Source: Flavobacteriaceae bacterium (lineage in GTDB: Bacteria > Bacteroidota > Bacteroidia > Flavobacteriales > Flavobacteriaceae). From it: a stretch of DNA of 32,038 nucleotides. Below the pieces are notes generated by a model, which was given only the letters and a program-made list of their open reading frames with translations, was not told where the DNA came from and made no database searches. Positions 2,068 through 14,438 of this stretch are shown here, in pieces (within the stretch, counting starts at the first letter, position 1; every line of letters begins with the position of its first letter). The position numbers were made by a program, and so were the translations under genes. The stretch lies in NCBI GenBank assembly GCA_009886265.1, contig QXZR01000080.1, positions 1 to 32,038 of the forward strand, read 5' to 3'.

Positions 2068-2130
2068 CAATTCCTATTGCCTAATAACTATTAACCAATC
2101 ACTAATAACTAATAACTAATCACTATTCCC
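2068..2130 (-). repeat. Heptamer tandem array (GTTATTA-type), 9 units
   Basis: Minus strand reads GGGAATA GTGATTA GTTATTA GTTATTA GTGATTG GTTAATA GTTATTA GGCAATA GGAATTG; overlaps the hisIE stop codon. Confidence 0.85.
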
Positions 2131-2716
2131 TACTCTCCAACACATCCACCACATCTTGCAGTGCATATCCTTTGGCTTGCAGTAAAATCAACAGGTGAAA
2201 GAGTAAATCGGCACTTTCGTTTAGGAATAAGCCTTTGTCATTGTCTTTGGCCTCAATAACCGTTTCCACCGCTTCCTCGCCTACTTTTTGTGCAATCTTA
2301 TTAATGCCTTTGGCGAACAAACTCGCTACATAACTTTTGTCAGTTGGGTTGTTTTTGCGGTCAGCAATGGTGTCTTCCAACCCCGATAGAAACCCATAAG
2401 AAGGGCTGTTTTTTTCGTTCCAGCAGGTATCGCTACCTGTGTGGCAGGTGGGTCCTTTGGGTGTAGCTTTAACAAGCAGTGCGTCCATATCGCAATCCAC
2501 GGCCAAGGATACCAATTCCAATACATTCCCGCTTTCCTCACCTTTGGTCCACAGGCGGTTTTTACTTCTGCTGTAGAAGGTAACTTGTTGGGTAGCTTCG
2601 GTTTTGGCAACGGCTTCGGCATTCATGTAGCCCAGCATCAGCACGGTTTTTGTCTGTGCGTCTTGTACTATGGCAGGTACAAGTCCGTCTGGGTATTTGC
2701 TAAAATCTATGTTCAT
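2123..2716 (-). CDS. hisIE: Bifunctional phosphoribosyl-AMP cyclohydrolase / phosphoribosyl-ATP pyrophosphohydrolase
   Basis: HisI motif ([25 protein letters not shown]) fused to HisE ([15 protein letters not shown]...[12 protein letters not shown]). Confidence 0.97.
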
Positions 2717-3465
2717 CGTACGGGTATTTGATGTTGATCTAAATATGTTTTGAGTTCGGGTATGCCGATTTCTTTAAAGTGAAACACACTTGCTGCCAAA
2801 GCGGCATCTGCATTTCCTTGTACAAAGGTATCAACAAAATGGGTCATCTCCCCTGCTCCACCAGAAGCAATTACAGGAACGCTTACCGTTTCACTTAATT
2901 TTTTTAATGCTGCATTGGCAAAGCCTTGCTTGGTACCATCGTGATCCATAGAAGTAAAGAGCAGTTCGCCAGCGCCTCGTTCCACGGCTTCAGTCGCCCA
3001 TTCAAACAGCCGTCTTTCCGTGGGTACTTTACCGCCTACCAAGTGTACCACCCATTCGTCTTCAATTTGTTTGGCATCGATGGCTACGACGATACATTGG
3101 GTGCCAAAACGCTGTGCCAGTTCACTTATGAGTTCTGGGCGGCGTACCGCTGCCGAGTTGATGGAAACCTTGTCTGCGCCGTTGTCTAGTAAGACACCTA
3201 CGTCTTCAACGGAACTTATGCCACCACCCACCGTAAAGGGGATGTCTATGGCCTGTGCTACATGACGCACCAGTTGTGCCAAGGTCTTGCGTTTTTCTTC
3301 AGATGCGGAAATGTCCAAAAAGACCAATTCGTCTGCGCCTTCCTGCGCATAACGTTGCGCCAGTTCAACGGGGTCGCCCGCATCACGCAAAGAGACAAAG
3401 TTGACACCCTTTACAGTACGTCCGTCTTTGACATCCAAACAAGGAATAATTCTTTTGGTCAGCAT
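2713..3465 (-). CDS. hisF: Imidazole glycerol phosphate synthase cyclase subunit
   Basis: [23 protein letters not shown]...[11 protein letters not shown]; operon position. Confidence 0.98.
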
Positions 3466-3466
3466 C

Positions 3467-4195
3467 TTATGATTGTTCTAATTGATAGTTTTCCAATTCT
3501 TTTAAGGATATTTTCCCTTCGTATATCGCCTTTCCAATGATGGCTGCCGTACAACCCAATTCTTCCAGTTGATACAAATCGTCCATACTGCTTACCCCAC
3601 CCGAAGCAATCAGCGAAATCTTTTTTACTTTCTCGAGCAGCTCATAGTAAAGCTCCAACGATGGACCTGCCAGCATGCCGTCTTTGGCAACATCAGTACA
3701 GAGTACATGCCTAAAACCTTTTGCGGTGTAGTCTTTGACAAAATCCAACACGTCTATCCCAGAGTCTTTTTCCCATCCGTGCGTGGCAATACGTCTGTCT
3801 TTGGCATCTGCGCCCAATATGAGTTTGTCTGTCCCAAATTGTTGTAGCCACTCCAAGACCAATTCTGGTGCATCTACGGCAATACTGCCTAAGGTAACCT
3901 GTGCAGCACCACAATCAAAGGCGGTTTGCAAATCAACAGCCGACTTAATACCACCCCCAAAATCTACCGTCAGTGCTGTTTTGGTTGCAATGGCTTCCAG
4001 TACTTTGGTGTTGACGATATGTTTTGCTCGTGCGCCGTCCAAATCAACTACGTGCAGGTGCGTCAATCCAGCACCCTCAAAAGCCTTGGCTACTTCGAGT
4101 GGCGAATCGCTATAGACTTTTTTGGTGTCGTAATCTCCTTTGGTGAGACGTACACATTGTCCGTTGATGATATCTATGGCAGGAACTAAAATCAT
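3467..4195 (-). CDS. hisA: ProFAR isomerase
   Basis: [22 protein letters not shown]...VDFGGGIKS...SGGVSS. Confidence 0.98.
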
Positions 4196-4770
4196 AAGGC
4201 TAGAAAGTTTTGTAGTAAGCGTGCGCCCACGGCTCCGCTTTTTTCTGGGTGAAACTGCGTACCGTAAAAATTGTCTTTCGCCAAGGCTGCAGCAAATGGA
4301 ACGTCATACGTACAAGCACCAACCACATTGTCGTTTGGTACCGCATAGAAGCTGTGTACCATATAAAAATGGCTGTTTGCATCGATATCCTTAAAGAGCA
4401 ATCCTTTGCCTTCAACCGTATTCCAACCCATATGGGGAACATTTAAATTGGTTTTAAAGCGTACAACAGCGGTATCGAAAATACCAAGCCCTGTTGTGTC
4501 GCCTTCTTCGGTATGGTTACACATCAGTTGCATCCCCAAACAGATGCCCAATACGGGTTGTGTTAGTGTAGGAAGGAGTTTGTCAAGTCCCGTTGCACGG
4601 AGTTTTTCCATAGCAGAACTTGCCTCGCCAACGCCAGGGAATATCACATGCGAAGCATTTTTGATGGTAGTCGCATCGTCGCTCAACGTGGCTGTGATGT
4701 CCAAACGCGCCAATGCAAAGCGAATGCTTTGAATATTGCCCGCCCCATAATCAATGATGACTACATTCAT
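4192..4770 (-). CDS. hisH: Imidazole glycerol phosphate synthase glutamine amidotransferase subunit
   Basis: [13 protein letters not shown]...GICLGMQLM...[11 protein letters not shown]. Confidence 0.98.
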
Positions 4771-5891
4771 AACTGTCCTTTGGTAGAGGGTAATACCAGT
4801 TTTTCTGCATCCCTTTTAATGGCTGCACGAATGGCCTTGGCAAAAGCCTTAAAAATGGCTTCAATCTTGTGGTGTTCATTGTGTCCTTCTGCTTTGATGT
4901 TCAGGTTAGCCTTGGCACCATCTGCAAAAGATTTAAAGAAGTGAAAGAACATTTCTGTTGGCATTTTACCAATGAGTTCTCTTTTGAATTTCGCATTCCA
5001 CATCAACCATGCACGACCCCCAAAATCAAGGGAAACTTGCGCCAAACAATCGTCCATAGGCAAGCAAAAGCCATAGCGTTCAATGCCCAGCTTATCGCCC
5101 AATGCTTTTCCAAAGGCTTCGCCCAAGGCAATGGCCGTATCTTCAATGGTGTGGTGTTCGTCTATTTCCAAATCCCCTTTGGTGGTCAGCTTTAGGTCTA
5201 CGCCTCCGTGACGTGCCAATTGGTCTAGCATGTGATCAAAAAAGGCAATGCCCGTATCAATACTGCTTTCGCCTGTTCCATCGAGGTTTAGGTCGATTTC
5301 AATGGCTGTTTCTTTTGTTTTGCGCTCGTGGCTGATGCGTCTTCCACCAGCCTTTAACAAGGTATATACCTCGCTCCAAGCGGTTGTTTTCAGTGCAATG
5401 GCATTCGTTAATGCTTCTGGGATTGCTGCTGCCATACGCGCATCGTTTTGCAACAAGATGCCCTTTGCGCCTAGGTTTACTGCCAGTTCCATATCTGTTA
5501 ATCTATCGCCAATGACATATGAGCTTCCAAGGTCGTAGTCTGCATTGTCAAGGTAAGCGGAAAGCATGCCCGTTTTGGGTTTGCGTGTAGGTGCATTGTC
5601 GGCTGGCAGGCTTTTATCGATAAGCACTTCGCTAAAGTTTATGCCTTCATTTTTTAAGGCAGTCATCATAAAATCGTGTGTGGACCAAAAGGTGTCTTCT
5701 GGAAAGCTATCCGTTCCTAAACCGTCTTGGTTGGTTACCATAACCAATTCATAATCTAACTCCTTGGCGATACGTCCCAAATACTGAAACACACCGGGAT
5801 AAAAAACGAGTTTATCCAATGCATCGAGTTGGTAGTTTTCAGGCTCCAGTGCTAGGGTGCCGTCTCGGTCAATAAACAATACTTTTTTCAT
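4767..5891 (-). CDS. hisB: Bifunctional histidinol-phosphatase / imidazoleglycerol-phosphate dehydratase
   Basis: N-terminal HAD ([12 protein letters not shown]) plus C-terminal IGPD ([43 protein letters not shown]). Confidence 0.97.
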
Positions 5892-6940
5892 AATGATATG
5901 GTATTACAAGCTTCCATAAGTTCGTTATTTTCGTCTGGTGTGCCTATGCTGATACGAAGGGTGTTTTCACAATTTGTCTGCGTAGATCGGTTGCGTACCA
6001 CCACTTTTTGCGCAAGCAATGCGTCATAGCGTTTGTTTGCATCATCAACGCGCATTAATAAAAAATTGGCATCTGATGGAAATACAGTTTTTACCCAATC
6101 CAGTTCATTTAAATAAGCCGCTACCCTACTGCGTTCGGCTAGCAATTCTGCTATTTGCTTGTTTACTTTTTCGATATCCGATAAGACTTCAATCGCTTGT
6201 TGTTGACTGAGGGTATTGATGTTGTAAGGCGGTTTAATGTTGTGCAGCAGCTTGATGACATTGGGTTGAGCGATGGCAATGCCTAAGCGTAATCCCGCCA
6301 GTCCAAAGGCCTTGGAAAGGGTCTGCGTAACCACAAGGTTGTGATAGTTGTCTAATTGAGATAGCCAACTTGGCCCATCCGTAAAATCGATATACGCCTC
6401 GTCTATAACCACCAACCCATCAAAGCCGTTGAGCAATGCTGTTATGTCTGAGGTTTTAAACAAGTTTCCACTTGGATTGTTGGGGCTACAAAAGAAAATA
6501 GCCTTGGTGTTTGGATCAACAGCTGCTAGGATTTCATCAGTCTTCAATTGAAAATCAGCCGTAAGCGGTACTTCTTTAATGCCCACACCATTGATGTTTG
6601 CCAACACGGCATACATACCATAAGTGGGTGGCATAAGAATTATGTTGTCTTTATTGGGTGTGCAAAACGCTCGGAATAGTAAATCCAAGATTTCATCACT
6701 GCCATTTCCAATCAAAAGTTGATTGATCGCACAGCCGCGAAGTGCAGCTATTTCTTTCTTCAATGCCAATTGATTTGGATCTGGATACCTGTTGACCGAA
6801 GACGGATTGGGATTCTCGTTGGCATCCAAAAAGGTATACTTCCCTTCTGTTGCGGTAAAGGTATCCCTAGCCGAAGTATAGGGCGCAAGCGCCAACATTT
6901 CGGGTCTAGCCCACTGCGTTAAATCAAATGCCTTAGCCAT
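5888..6940 (-). CDS. hisC: Histidinol-phosphate aminotransferase
   Basis: PLP aminotransferase motifs ([23 protein letters not shown]), operon position. Confidence 0.96.
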
Positions 6941-8219
6941 TGTTCAAATCTTTTAATCGCAAGCTTACTGCGTTCTTGTGGGCATCAAGCCCCTCTGCTG
7001 CAGCCATAGCCTCAATGTGTGGGCCTAAAGACTGTATACCTTGCGCACTGATGCGCTGATAGGTTATCGCCTTTAAAAAGGCATCTAAATTAACCCCACT
7101 GTATTGTTTGGTGTATCCATTGGTAGGCAACGTGTGATTGGTACCAGAAGCATAGTCACCAGCACTTTCAGGCGTATAATTGCCAATAAACACAGAACCT
7201 GCGTTGATAATCCCATCTATAAATAGGGTTTCGTTCTCCACACAAGCGATGTAGTGCTCAGGACCGTATTCGTTGATAAAATCAAGTGCAACTTGTTCGT
7301 TGTCAAAATATACAGCCAATGAGTTTTCCAATGCTGCAGCAGCGATTTCTTTTCGTGGCAGCGCAAGCAATTGTTTGTCGAGTTCAGCTTTTACCAACTC
7401 CCCCATTTCTTTGGTCGTTGTAACCAATATCACCTGACTGTCTTTGCCGTGCTCGGCTTGGGACAACAGGTCTGCAGCCACATAAGCGGAGGTTGCCGTG
7501 CTGTCTGCAACTACCAAGAGTTCAGATGGGCCTGCGGGCATATCAATGGCGGTTTGGTATTGGGTTGCCTTTTGCTTGGCTACCGTTACAAACTGATTTC
7601 CAGGACCAAATATCTTATAAACTTTAGGAATGCTTTCAGTGCCAAACGTAAGGGCAGCTATGGCCTGTATGCCGCCAATTTGTGCTACGAGCGTCACGCC
7701 ACATTTTTGTGCTGCATAGCGGATGGCAGCAGGAATACCTGCTTTGTTTGGTGGTGTACACAATACTATTTGACTACAGCCTGCCAGTTGCGCAGGAATG
7801 GCCAGCATCAAGACGGTTGAAAACAACGGTGCGGTTCCGCCGGGTATATAAATCCCTACTTTCTCAATGGGTTTTTTCTCTTGCCAGCAGCTAACCCCTT
7901 CTTGGGTATCCAAACGAACGGGTGCTGTTTTTTGTGCTTTGTGAAAGCGGTAAATGTTTTCATAGGCCACGTCAATAGCAGCGACCAGTTCCGCAGACAA
8001 TTCACTTTTGGCATTTGCCAATGCTTGCGCATCCACCATCAGTTGATCAGGAGTATATGCGTCAAACTTTTGGCTGTACTCCCGAACGGCTGCATCGCCA
8101 TTGCTACGCACGGCAGCAAAGACTTCATCCACTATGGGTTCAATAGAAGAGAAATCAGCAGTTGGACGCTGGGTAAGCGCCTGCCACGTACTTCGATCAG
8201 GATTGGATATAAATTTCAT
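6933..8219 (-). CDS. hisD: Histidinol dehydrogenase
   Basis: IYIPGGTAPLFSTVLM, GPGNQFVTVAKQ, DMPAGPSELLVVAD, ASGTNHTLPTNGY. Confidence 0.98.
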   Translation of the reverse strand: MKFISNPDRSTWQALTQRPTADFSSIEPIVDEVFAAVRSNGDAAVREYSQKFDAYTPDQLMVDAQALANAKSELSAELVAAIDVAYENIYRFHKAQKTAPVRLDTQEGVSCWQEKKPIEKVGIYIPGGTAPLFSTVLMLAIPAQLAGCSQIVLCTPPNKAGIPAAIRYAAQKCGVTLVAQIGGIQAIAALTFGTESIPKVYKIFGPGNQFVTVAKQKATQYQTAIDMPAGPSELLVVADSTATSAYVAADLLSQAEHGKDSQVILVTTTKEMGELVKAELDKQLLALPRKEIAAAALENSLAVYFDNEQVALDFINEYGPEHYIACVENETLFIDGIINAGSVFIGNYTPESAGDYASGTNHTLPTNGYTKQYSGVNLDAFLKAITYQRISAQGIQSLGPHIEAMAAAEGLDAHKNAVSLRLKDLNNG

Positions 8220-9079
8220 TATTGAATGATTCGTTCAATGGGACATACCAATATATCTCGGGCACCGGCCGCTTTTAGAGCATCTACCATTTCCCAGAAG
8301 GTGTTTTTGTCTATGGCAGAGTGTAACGAACTCCAACCTTCTTCAACCAAGGGCATAACCGTAGGGCTTTTTAGTACCGGCAGCATTTTAGATATGGTAT
8401 CGATGGCGTCGTTTGGCACATTCATGATGATGTATCTGGAATTTTTTCCTGCGTTTACAGCACGAATACGGAACAAAAGCGTATCGAGAATTTCTTGTTT
8501 GGCAGCTGACAATCCCATACCACCAACCAAAACGGCTTGTGACTTGAACAACACTTTAACTTCTTTAAGGTTGTTCTTAAATAGCGTAGATCCACTGGAA
8601 ACGATGTCGCAAATGGCATCTGATAGGCCAATATTGGGTGCTATCTCCACCGAGCCGTTAATGATGTGTAAATCAGCTTTAATATTCCATTCCGACAGGT
8701 ATTTCTGAACTGTTTTTGGATAAGATGTAGCGATGCGCTTGCCTGCTAAATCGGCAACGCTGCTATATGTACTCCCTTTTGGAACAGCTATGGACACCCG
8801 ACATTTTGAAAAGCCCAGTGGCTCAAGGATGGGAATATCCTCTCCTTTTTCAACGATTAGATTTTCACCAATGATGGCCAAATCCACTACCCCATCTCTG
8901 AGGTATTGCGGAATATCTCCGTTGCGTAGGTAATAAACCTCTATGGGGAAATTAGATGACGATGTCTTAAGCTGGTCTTTGCCATTGTTGATGGCAATGC
9001 CACAGCTCTTGAGCAGTTTTAATGATTCTTCGTTAAGTCTTCCTGACTTCTGAATCGCGATACGTATATTTTCTTTCAT
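8219..9079 (-). CDS. hisG: ATP phosphoribosyltransferase (long form); start moved from the ORF-track position 9112 to ATG at 9079
   Basis: MKENIRIAIQKSGRLNEESLKLL...VDLAIIGENLI. The upstream TTG-initiated extension (MLKRVFCYNKV) reads through the terminator 3' arm, so ATG 9079 is preferred. Confidence 0.96.
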   Translation of the reverse strand: MKENIRIAIQKSGRLNEESLKLLKSCGIAINNGKDQLKTSSSNFPIEVYYLRNGDIPQYLRDGVVDLAIIGENLIVEKGEDIPILEPLGFSKCRVSIAVPKGSTYSSVADLAGKRIATSYPKTVQKYLSEWNIKADLHIINGSVEIAPNIGLSDAICDIVSSGSTLFKNNLKEVKVLFKSQAVLVGGMGLSAAKQEILDTLLFRIRAVNAGKNSRYIIMNVPNDAIDTISKMLPVLKSPTVMPLVEEGWSSLHSAIDKNTFWEMVDALKAAGARDILVCPIERIIQ

Positions 9080-9093
9080 GACTTTATTATAAC

Positions 9094-9124
9094 AAAAAAC
9101 CCGTTTGAGCAATACAAACGGGTT
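9094..9124 (-). terminator. Intrinsic terminator of the his attenuator
   Basis: Minus strand AACCCGTTTG-TATTGCT-CAAACGGGTT followed by TTTT: 10-bp perfect stem (9115-9124 / 9098-9107), 7-nt loop, U tract, about 15 nt before the hisG ATG. Confidence 0.93.
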
Positions 9125-9147
9125 AGACGGTTATTGACATACTCCAC

Positions 9148-9201
9148 CTAGCACGTTTGAAACGCAATATTGTTGTGGTGGAAAAAATGTGTTTTACTCA
9201 T
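9148..9201 (-). CDS. hisL: his operon leader peptide MSKTHFFHHNNIAFQTC* (17 aa)
   Basis: Short ORF just upstream of the attenuator terminator; His at codons 5, 8 and 9 (CAT, CAC, CAC); stop followed by region able to pair with His-codon region. Confidence 0.88.
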   Translation of the reverse strand: MSKTHFFHHNNIAFQTC

Positions 9202-9234
9202 TACAATGCAAATATCGAAAATTTTTTGAAAACC

Positions 9235-10053
9235 TTACTGATTTCCTAAAATAAGTGGCAGCCCATCTTCACCACCACCAACAACAATAATTTTGGTGTT
9301 AGGTGATTCTGCTAACATAAGAGTCGCCTCAATTCCCTTATCTCTTAAGATATTTGGTGTTAGCGATGCTGCTAACAGCCTGTTGGCTACAGCTTTACCC
9401 TCTGCTTCAATACGTACTTTTTCTGCTTCCTGACGTGCTTTTTCTAACCTAAACTCATATTCCAAGGCTTCTTGCTCTTGGGTAAGTTTACGTTGAATAG
9501 CCTCTTTAATAGACGTTGGAAGGGTTACATCACGTACCAATACTGCATTGAGCTGTACATGTTGTCCTTCTACCTTGCGCATGGTTTCTTCATAAATTTC
9601 ATTTTGAATGGCGTCACGCTTTGAGGAGTACAATTGCTCGGGCGTGTAACGTCCAATTACAGATCGGGCAACTGCACGAATTTCCGGAACAATAACGATG
9701 TTCAGGTAATTCTCTCCTTTGGTTTTGTGCAACATGCCCAGCTCGTCAATCTTTGGTTGGTATAAAACCGATACGTCTAGGGAAATTTCAAGTCCGTTTG
9801 AAGAAAGCACTCGCATGCCGCTCTCAAACTCTTCTTGTTGTTTGATGTTATACGTATAGACACGGTTCCAAGGTGCAATAAAACGAAACCCTTCGCCTAA
9901 GGGTGGTTCATCAACTACGGTTCCGCCTCCAAAGCGTTTCCATACTACACCAGCTTCACCATAAGGGATGTTGATGTATGATTTTGAAATAAAAATAACA
10001 CCTACGATTATAAGTATTATTAGGGGTAATCCAAGTTTTGGTAATTTTTCCAT
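9235..10053 (-). CDS. SPFH/prohibitin-family protein
   Basis: N-terminal TM helix, SPFH domain (IPYGEAGVVWKRFGG...), long EALEYEFRLEKARQEAEKVRIEAEGKA coiled segment. Confidence 0.9.
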   Translation of the reverse strand: MEKLPKLGLPLIILIIVGVIFISKSYINIPYGEAGVVWKRFGGGTVVDEPPLGEGFRFIAPWNRVYTYNIKQQEEFESGMRVLSSNGLEISLDVSVLYQPKIDELGMLHKTKGENYLNIVIVPEIRAVARSVIGRYTPEQLYSSKRDAIQNEIYEETMRKVEGQHVQLNAVLVRDVTLPTSIKEAIQRKLTQEQEALEYEFRLEKARQEAEKVRIEAEGKAVANRLLAASLTPNILRDKGIEATLMLAESPNTKIIVVGGGEDGLPLILGNQ

Positions 10054-12258: not shown

Positions 12259-13041
12259 TTAGTTTTGAATATATCCTTTCATAATACCGCGTTGTGATTG
12301 TCTGATGAACTGAAGGATATCATCTCTTTCTGTAGATGCTTCCATTTCGGCCTCAATAATCTGTGTTGCCTGAGTATTATTAAAGTTCTTTTGGTAGAGG
12401 ATGCGATAAATGCTCTGAATTTCTTTGATTTTATCTGAATCAAAGCCCCTACGTCTTAAACCAACAGAATTAACACCCGCATAGGAAAGCGGCTCACGAG
12501 CTGCTTTTACAAATGGTGGGATATCCTTACGGACCAATGAACCACCTGCAACAAAAGCGTGATCGCCAATGGAACAAAACTGGTGTACGGCCGTCATTCC
12601 AGCCAGAATAACGTGACTGCCTACAGAAATATGCCCTGCAAGCGTGCTATTGTTTGAGAAAATACAATGGTCACCAACAATACAATCGTGAGCAATGTGA
12701 GAATAAGCCATAATGAGGCAGTGCTTCCCAATTTTAGTCTTTGCTCTTGAAGTAGTACCACGGTTAATGGTAACACATTCCCTAATGGTAGTGTTGTCAC
12801 CTATTTCAGCGGTTGTTTTTTCTCCGTTAAACTTAAGGTCTTGAGGAACAGCACTGATTACAGCGCCAGAAAAAATATTGCAGTTTTTCCCTATTCGTGC
12901 ACCTTCCATGATGGTTACGTTTGGACCTATCCAGGTTCCCTCGCCTATCACCACGTTTTTATCAATTGTGGTAAATGGCTCTATCACGACATTCTTTGCA
13001 ATTTTCGCATCTGAATGTACGTATGCTAATGGTTGATTCAT
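12259..13041 (-). CDS. lpxA: UDP-N-acetylglucosamine acyltransferase
   Basis: Left-handed beta-helix hexapeptides, HDCIVGDHCIFSNNSTLAGH, GGSLVRKDIPPFV. Confidence 0.96.
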   Translation of the reverse strand: MNQPLAYVHSDAKIAKNVVIEPFTTIDKNVVIGEGTWIGPNVTIMEGARIGKNCNIFSGAVISAVPQDLKFNGEKTTAEIGDNTTIRECVTINRGTTSRAKTKIGKHCLIMAYSHIAHDCIVGDHCIFSNNSTLAGHISVGSHVILAGMTAVHQFCSIGDHAFVAGGSLVRKDIPPFVKAAREPLSYAGVNSVGLRRRGFDSDKIKEIQSIYRILYQKNFNNTQATQIIEAEMEASTERDDILQFIRQSQRGIMKGYIQN

Positions 13042-14438
13042 ACTTTGACTTGATCTTTTCGTACAATTTGAGCCATCATTTCAGCCTCTGTTGTAACCCT
13101 GCCTCTTGAATACGCTACGGCTTGCATATGGCAAATACCCCTGCGTATGGGCGATAATAATTCCATTTTGAAAATGAGTGTATCTCCAGGAACAACGGGG
13201 TTCTTGAATTTGGCATTTTCAATTTTCATAAAAAATGTGAGGTAGTTTTCTGGATCTGGAACGGTATTCAATACCAATACACCACCTGCTTGTGCCATGG
13301 CCTCTATCTGAAGTACGCCGGGCATAACAGGCTGTCCAGGAAAGTGTCCTGCAAAGTAGGGTTCGTTCATCGTGATGCTCTTCATACCTACGATATGTGT
13401 GTCACTCAATTCCAAAATCTTGTCTACCAATAAGAATGGAGGGCGGTGTGGTAATACTTTCATAATGGCATTTACGTCCATTACTGGTTCAGCGTTCAAA
13501 TCAAACTCAGGTACGCGATTGCGTCTTTCTTGTTTGATGATTTTAGCGAGTTTTTTGGCAAAGCTAGTATTGGTACCGTGTCCTGGTTTGTTTGCAATTA
13601 CCTTTCCCTTAATACGGCAGCCCACTAGCGCCAAATCACCAATTACGTCTAGCAATTTGTGACGAGCAGCTTCGTTGGGATATTTTAATGTCAAATTATC
13701 TAAAATACCATTGGGTTTAACCGAAATACTATCTCTGTTAAAAGCCTTGCAGAGTTTGCTCATGGTAGCTTCAGAAAGCTCTTTGTCTACATATACAATG
13801 GCGTTATTGAGATCGCCACCTTTGATAAGCCCGTGTTCAAGAAGGGATTCTATTTCGTGCAAAAAGCTAAAGGTACGTGCGTTGGCAAATTGATCCTCGA
13901 AATCACTGAGGTTTTTTAGGTTTGCGTTTTGTGTTCCAAGAACTTTGGTGCCAAAGTCGACCATGGTGGTAACTTGATAATTATCCGCTGGAATAACGGT
14001 TATTTCACTACCCGTTTCTTCATCAGCAAAAGTGATGTTTTCACGAACCACATATTCATACCTTTCAGCATCTTGTTCTTCAATACCTGCCTTCAGCAAA
14101 GCTTCAACAAAATGAATAGAAGAACCATCCATAATGGGAGGTTCAGATGCATTTAGCTCTATTAAAACATTGTCTATTTCCAGTCCAACAAGTGCAGCTA
14201 GAACATGCTCTGATGTTTGTATGCTGACACCGTTCTTTTCTAGATTTGTACCTCTAGTTGTATTTACCACCAAGTTGGCATCTGCCTTAATGATGGGGTT
14301 TCCTTCTAAATCAACACGAGAAAAGGCATAGCCATGATTAACTGGTGCTGGTTTGAATGAAAGTTTAACTTTTTTTCCTGTGTGAATACCAACGCCGCTT
14401 AACGAAACAGCCTTGGAGATTGTTGTTTGCTTAGTCAT
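13038..14438 (-). CDS. lpxC-fabZ: Bifunctional UDP-3-O-acyl-GlcNAc deacetylase / 3-hydroxyacyl-ACP dehydratase
   Basis: N-terminal LpxC ([32 protein letters not shown]) fused to FabZ ([32 protein letters not shown]). Confidence 0.97.

Follow-up and report, generated by a model that had tools for sequence, protein, structure and literature searches.

The window, by which we mean the whole stretch of DNA analyzed (32,038 nt, from a member of the Flavobacteriaceae), carries a complete eight-gene histidine operon, hisG-D-C-B-H-A-F-IE, with hisG as its first gene. Elsewhere in the window (13038-14438, minus strand) is a gene for a fused protein of the LpxC-FabZ type, with LpxC and FabA-like domains, after which come an lpxA-like gene and genes for elongation factor P and a CoA ligase. 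Between hisG and the preceding gene, the initial annotation had described an unannotated 17-aa leader peptide with histidines at codons 5, 8 and 9, followed by the alternative hairpins of an attenuator. The leader was found as described, a short ORF bearing codons for the product of the operon, three His (CAT, CAC and CAC) among 17 codons. By position the element precedes its cognate biosynthetic operon (Table 1).

Table 1. Coordinates of the leader region and his operon in the window, and of two further leaders in the same genome
Feature	Position	Strand	Basis
Candidate sigma-A -7 box GATATTTG, 5/6 match to TAnnTTTG	9209..9216	minus	sequence; consensus position from PMC9723704
Leader ORF MSKTHFFHHNNIAFQTC and stop, 17 aa	9201-9148	minus	sequence; His leader in 103/103 family hisG upstreams
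His codon 5 (CAT)	9187..9189	minus	sequence
His codons 8 and 9 (CAC CAC), presumed stall site	9175..9180	minus	sequence
Segment 1, UUCCACC, overlapping the His codons	9177..9183	minus	fold and species-matched pairing
Partner of segment 1 in 1:2 hairpin, GGUGGAG, from last base of stop codon	9142..9148	minus	fold, species-matched pairing
Segment 2, antiterminator 5' arm CAAACGTGCTAGGT (CAAACGUGCUAGGU), stop codon inside	9146..9159	minus	pairing, conservation in more than one reading frame across family
Segment 3, antiterminator 3' arm GTCTAACCCGTTTG (GUCUAACCCGUUUG), overlapping terminator 5' arm	9115..9128	minus	pairing, ribosome-blocking folds
3:4 intrinsic terminator: perfect 10-bp stem 9124-9115 / 9107-9098, 7-nt loop, U tract to 9094	9094..9124	minus	fold, family alignment
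hisG, ATP phosphoribosyltransferase, long form with C-terminal regulatory domain	8219..9079	minus	Pfam PF01634 and PF08029
Remaining his operon: hisD, hisC, hisB (with HAD domain), hisH, hisA, hisF, hisIE	2123..8219	minus	Pfam, contiguous same-strand ORFs
trpE leader (Trp) MKKRIFNTLWWNS and stop, with terminator AAGGCTTGTC/GACAGGCCTT	L203:1690-1500 (G000:C2)	minus	same genome; trpE by Pfam
pheA leader MKTNTYYSSFYYFYNGR and stop, then terminator	L143 (G000:C29:29402-29518)	minus	same genome; pheA by Pfam

The three helices likewise lie where they had been proposed. In the 1:2 hairpin all 7 of 7 positions pair, one of them as G-U. Antiterminator 2:3 pairs at 12 of 14 positions, with two internal mismatches and two wobbles, and because it shares an arm with terminator 3:4 the two are mutually exclusive. 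The terminator, a perfect stem with its U tract, sits between the leader and the first structural gene, its U tract ending 14 nt before the hisG ATG. Folding of the window leader, a check that had been suggested, gave a minimum free energy of -28.5 kcal/mol (z -2.05 against dinucleotide shuffles) and a structure containing helices 1:2 and 3:4.

Taken by itself the window leader is only mildly improbable as a chance occurrence: when the 300-nt upstream region was shuffled by dinucleotides, 2.6% of the shuffles contained an ATG-started ORF of 8-30 aa with at least three His (P=0.026), so one copy is no more than suggestive. It is conservation in relatives that makes the leader certain. We collected hisG loci of the family and removed identical upstream regions, leaving 103. 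All 103 non-redundant upstreams showed a His-bearing short ORF, then an intrinsic terminator, then hisG; absence of leader or helices from close relatives, which the initial annotation had named as grounds for abandoning the idea, was looked for and was not what we found. By a strict count (ATG start, 8-30 aa, at least three His), 89/103 qualified; among dinucleotide shuffles the rate was 4.2%, and among reverse complements 0%. Typical leaders of the family are MKRTALHHHHFYSRTQAR, MRNRTTHHHFHTHAQAR and MNNTHTHHHSKSSFQTS. The histidine leader is thus confirmed as real and conserved.

The manner of conservation differs along the leader. His residues are kept with either codon across the family (313 CAT, 50 CAC), whereas the C-terminal part is conserved as nucleotides (UCAARCGAG..) and not as peptide, reading QAR, QTS or, in another frame, SNEL. 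Segment 2 falls in reading frame 2, 0 or 1 in 83, 15 and 3 leaders, respectively. An amino acid kept at the His run together with RNA kept at segment 2 is the pattern that attenuation predicts. In two Maribacter-like loci (L023, L092) the conserved CAG of segment 2 has become TAG; the peptide is three codons shorter, and segment 2 is kept.

The window copy is a weak version of the element, with three His codons, two Phe between them, and a 2:3 helix of -8.3 kcal/mol that ranks sixth from the weakest among the 103. Its His run and those of its two nearest relatives (L032, L033) read HFFHH, HVFHH and HFFHY (the last within MNKIHFFHYNN of L033); HTHHH or IHHH is found in sister species of the same genus. 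The initial annotation was right to call the His run weak: the sub-clade of the window has 2-3 His codons and a weak 2:3 helix. The attenuator of this species may respond less steeply.

Pairing was compared across 52 non-redundant leaders (alignment A1) by joining each arm to its own partner or to that of another species. In permutation tests, in which shared ancestry remains, own partners were better for all three helices: -12.4 versus -9.3 kcal/mol for 1:2 (0/2000 permutations as good), -11.9 versus -11.5 for 2:3 (8/2000) and -17.4 versus -16.6 for 3:4 (0/2000), and at class level -12.6 versus -10.5 for 2:3 (0/5000). Changes on both sides were seen in at least one sequence for 5 of 11 pairs of the 3:4 stem, with 99.7% of cells paired. 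Covariation of 2:3 inside the family is modest because parts of arm 3 are nearly invariant. In one clade (L013, L026, L061) the terminator stem has been replaced by CCUUCCUGA / UCAGGAGGG; for pairing with this new segment 3, the clade's own segment 2, AUCGGGUGAG, still gives -8.1 kcal/mol and the segment 2 of other species -5.4 kcal/mol. An alignment of related hisG upstreams had been put forward as a check, and it bears out the proposal both in the pairing of the helices and in the retention of CAT/CAC.

Ribosome blocking was simulated by removing the covered stretch, with a footprint assumed to extend 10 nt beyond the A site and the transcript ended after segment 3. With the simulated ribosome at the last His codon, 2:3 formed in 50/52 leaders; with it at the stop codon, in 0/52. 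When no ribosome was placed on the full leaders, 1:2 formed beside 3:4 in 51/52. In silico, then, ribosome position selects the fold, in agreement with the initial annotation, which had a ribosome stalled at codons 8-9 freeing the antiterminator arm and one at the stop codon covering it. At equilibrium over the full length 3:4 always beats 2:3, so the decision must be made co-transcriptionally, as in attenuators generally. Spacing within the leaders fits the dimensions of a ribosome: the His run lies a median 14 nt from segment 2, and the start of segment 2 lies 13 nt from the end of the stop codon (5-95% range 13-15).

We interpret the element as a ribosome-mediated transcription attenuator that couples expression of the his operon to histidyl-tRNA charging, and place the probability of this reading at roughly 0.94. 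RNA polymerase would start just 5' of the leader, and a ribosome would load on the leader AUG. When charged tRNA-His is scarce, this ribosome should stall at codons 8-9, covering segment 1 and leaving segment 2 free to form 2:3 once segment 3 is made; 3:4 would then be blocked and the polymerase would proceed into hisG. When tRNA-His is charged, the ribosome would instead reach the stop codon within segment 2 and cover that segment, and 3:4 would terminate transcription before hisG. If the leader were not translated at all, 1:2 would form and 3:4 would terminate again. Leader-ORF conservation, pairing that tracks species, ribosome geometry and the his operon downstream all argue for this classic form of attenuation, the reading first offered for the locus; the leader translation, stalling, termination and histidine response that it entails are predicted from sequence and simulation.

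Other explanations were considered. The hairpin could be the plain terminator of the preceding same-strand SPFH/Band_7 gene, whose end is at 9235 and which 84/103 relatives retain; the His-rich ORF would then be a by-product, a possibility for which the single-copy chance of 2.6% leaves some room. However, the 19 relatives without the SPFH gene still keep leader and terminator before hisG, and a plain terminator gives no role to the leader, to segments 1 and 2 or to species-matched pairing; furthermore, the leaders before pheA and trpE change to Phe/Tyr and Trp. We consider such a by-product extremely unlikely. Control by the leader might act mainly through Rho, or on hisG translation, rather than through intrinsic termination, and three lineages (f55, f30 and f93, described below) do have His leaders with no obvious G+C-rich terminator. 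The window and all family members nevertheless have a strong stem and U tract after the leader, which makes this option very unlikely for them. Finally, sub-threshold weak matches to PyrR and Trp_leader might hint at an RNA that senses tRNA or a metabolite (T-box, riboswitch), or at a PyrR-type leader bound by a protein. These matches rest largely on the terminator hairpin, no Rfam family reached its gathering score, and the T-box covariance model gave no match in the window in the Rfam scan; the chance of a sensor of this kind is close to nil.

Leaders were found before two further biosynthetic genes in the same genome, trpE and pheA (Table 1). Across the family, Phe/Tyr-rich leaders precede pheA in 30/30 loci opened, and leaders with 2-3 tandem Trp precede trpE in 28/30. 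A locus-by-locus check of the same genome saw no leader before ilvD or before the fused aspartokinase-homoserine dehydrogenase gene (thrA).

The main text of a study of Flavobacterium psychrophilum places the sigma-A box TAnnTTTG at -12 to -5, and gives the proportion of leaderless mRNAs as only 5.5% (PMC9723704). The candidate box in the window lies 7 nt from the leader AUG, for a predicted start at ~9204, 3 nt before the AUG. Of the family's his leaders, 79/103 have a box matching at 5-6 of 6 positions no more than 11 nt from the leader AUG, compared with 19% in shuffles. The spacings from box to AUG cluster sharply at 7-8 nt (62/103), for a predicted 5' end 3-4 nt upstream of the AUG. Among trpE leaders 27/28 have the full box, 15 of these within 11 nt; in the genome of the window, 5 nt separate the end of the trpE box, TATATTTG, from the leader AUG, for a predicted 5' UTR of 1 nt. 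At pheA, a -7-like box was within 11 nt in only 8/30, near the shuffled rate of 18% and so no excess. The pheA result rules out universal near-leaderless starts, and we limit the claim to his and trp; many leader AUGs appear, by prediction, to be only 3-4 nt from the transcription start.

A wider proposition is tentative, and we think it rather improbable as a whole: that His, Trp and Phe/Tyr attenuators occur throughout the Bacteroidota, that their leader AUGs are very often a few nucleotides from the transcription start, and that near-leaderless loading keeps the first ribosome in step with the polymerase. If true, it would imply a tight coupling of translation to transcription at these Bacteroidota operons. 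The phylum does not rely on Shine-Dalgarno initiation. Attenuation works only if the first ribosome follows closely behind the polymerase, so these leaders could serve directly to test how transcription and translation are coupled, and likewise to test initiation without Shine-Dalgarno sequences in Bacteroidota.

To survey the element beyond the family, covariance model R1 was run on 298 genomes of the order. The element is present in several other Flavobacteriales families, with leaders such as MFNQLHHHHFHTCTHAS. Strong hits that were opened in these families (E below 1e-5) lay directly before hisG, with the exception of L160 (E 7.6e-6, borderline), for which no ORF was found downstream. In the order search, hits with E above about 1e-4 were weak and proved to be unrelated terminators. 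A plus-strand R1 hit at 9009-9124 of the window was discarded as the reverse complement of the terminator stem. At class level, 56/67 hisG loci had a leader with at least three His, compared with 4.9% of shuffles, and 50/67 had, in addition, a downstream hairpin resembling a terminator, though one or two of these calls (e.g. L221, L238) look doubtful. At phylum level the element recurs in some further Bacteroidota lineages, for example MKNIPATYHLHHHHFNSKRAG with a CCCCGGC terminator. A limit of its distribution is marked by f87, where the four genomes opened (L330-L333) had no His leader before hisG. One element very like that of Flavobacteriales (MNLLQLHHHRHHHTCSQARW, with a CCCGTCTGAG stem) was seen at L338 in a genome placed outside the class (G887, f104), possibly the result of his operon transfer or of a mis-binned contig.

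Three lineages departed from the family pattern. In f93 (L244, L249, L251-L254, L257-L259, L261, L264) the hisG leaders follow a pattern of their own, with 7-11 His codons (e.g. MKELLLHIHHLSGDVHHAHRGHHHIHVH) and no obvious intrinsic terminator before hisG; they possibly use a different mode of control. In loci of f55 (L221, L223, L225, L233, L242) and f30 (L184, L206), a strong hairpin spans the His codons and the stop codon of the His leader. None of these f55 and f30 loci has a G+C-rich terminator; L221 and L223 have only an A+T-rich hairpin (GTTTTG/CAAAAC) and a U run.

The initial annotation had taken the locus for a rarely annotated case rather than a new mechanism. Known in mechanism and under-annotated it is, but it is not rare, being standard in Flavobacteriaceae and widespread in Bacteroidota. 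Lopatovskaya's broad comparative study of attenuation (2010) may reportedly already mention Bacteroidetes, and partly for this reason we claim no new kind of element. For a large phylum that is poorly understood, the present work puts a name to the control of histidine synthesis, which goes unrecognized there by every Rfam model, and it provides a covariance model and coordinates for annotation.

The Rfam family His_leader (RF00514, gathering score 49) had no match in the window, even at E up to 10; in the positive control it scored E. coli hisL at 131.6 bits. The hisL leaders of E. coli and Salmonella resemble the present element in having a leader peptide with His codons (MTRVQFKHHHHHHHPD in E. 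coli), alternative hairpins, and a terminator before hisG of the same operon. There is, however, no detectable sequence relation, since RF00514 misses the window and model R1 scores hisL at only E=0.2; furthermore, hisL has seven His in a row, whereas the window leader has three interrupted His codons and a predicted very short 5' end. Attenuation of his genes had been described as known mainly from Gammaproteobacteria, a view that can be refined: it has already been reported in Firmicutes (PMC9413887, 2022; for hisS/hisZ, PMC2965389, 2010), and the F. psychrophilum main text holds clues to it (PMC9723704). The Firmicutes attenuators have three to five His codons, a terminator and an antiterminator, and no RF00514 match, much like the window element, but belong to another phylum. 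For the leader AUG near the 5' end of the RNA the closest likeness is the leaderless trpL attenuator of Sinorhizobium meliloti (PMC7298713), which serves Trp, has been studied experimentally and has an RNA that starts at the AUG; the corresponding distance for the window element is about 3 nt and predicted only.

The nearest known system is in the same family. The main text of the 2021 F. psychrophilum study reports structured 5' elements before pheA and hisG, found also in other Flavobacteriaceae genera and without Rfam hits, as well as strong clues that amino-acid operons are preceded by leader-peptide attenuators (PMC9723704); given that report, the mechanism is not new. Its hisG 5' element shares with ours the family, the gene, presence in other genera and the lack of an Rfam hit, and is transcribed; the two are very probably the same element. 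For hisG, that main text describes no leader peptide and no helices; nor does it give covariation or any occurrence outside the family. The mechanism is therefore ordinary, and the element was already seen in the family while under-annotated in databases; to this our analysis adds the identity of the element, statistical support for its helices, the geometry relative to the ribosome, the distribution across Bacteroidota and a likely near-leaderless start.
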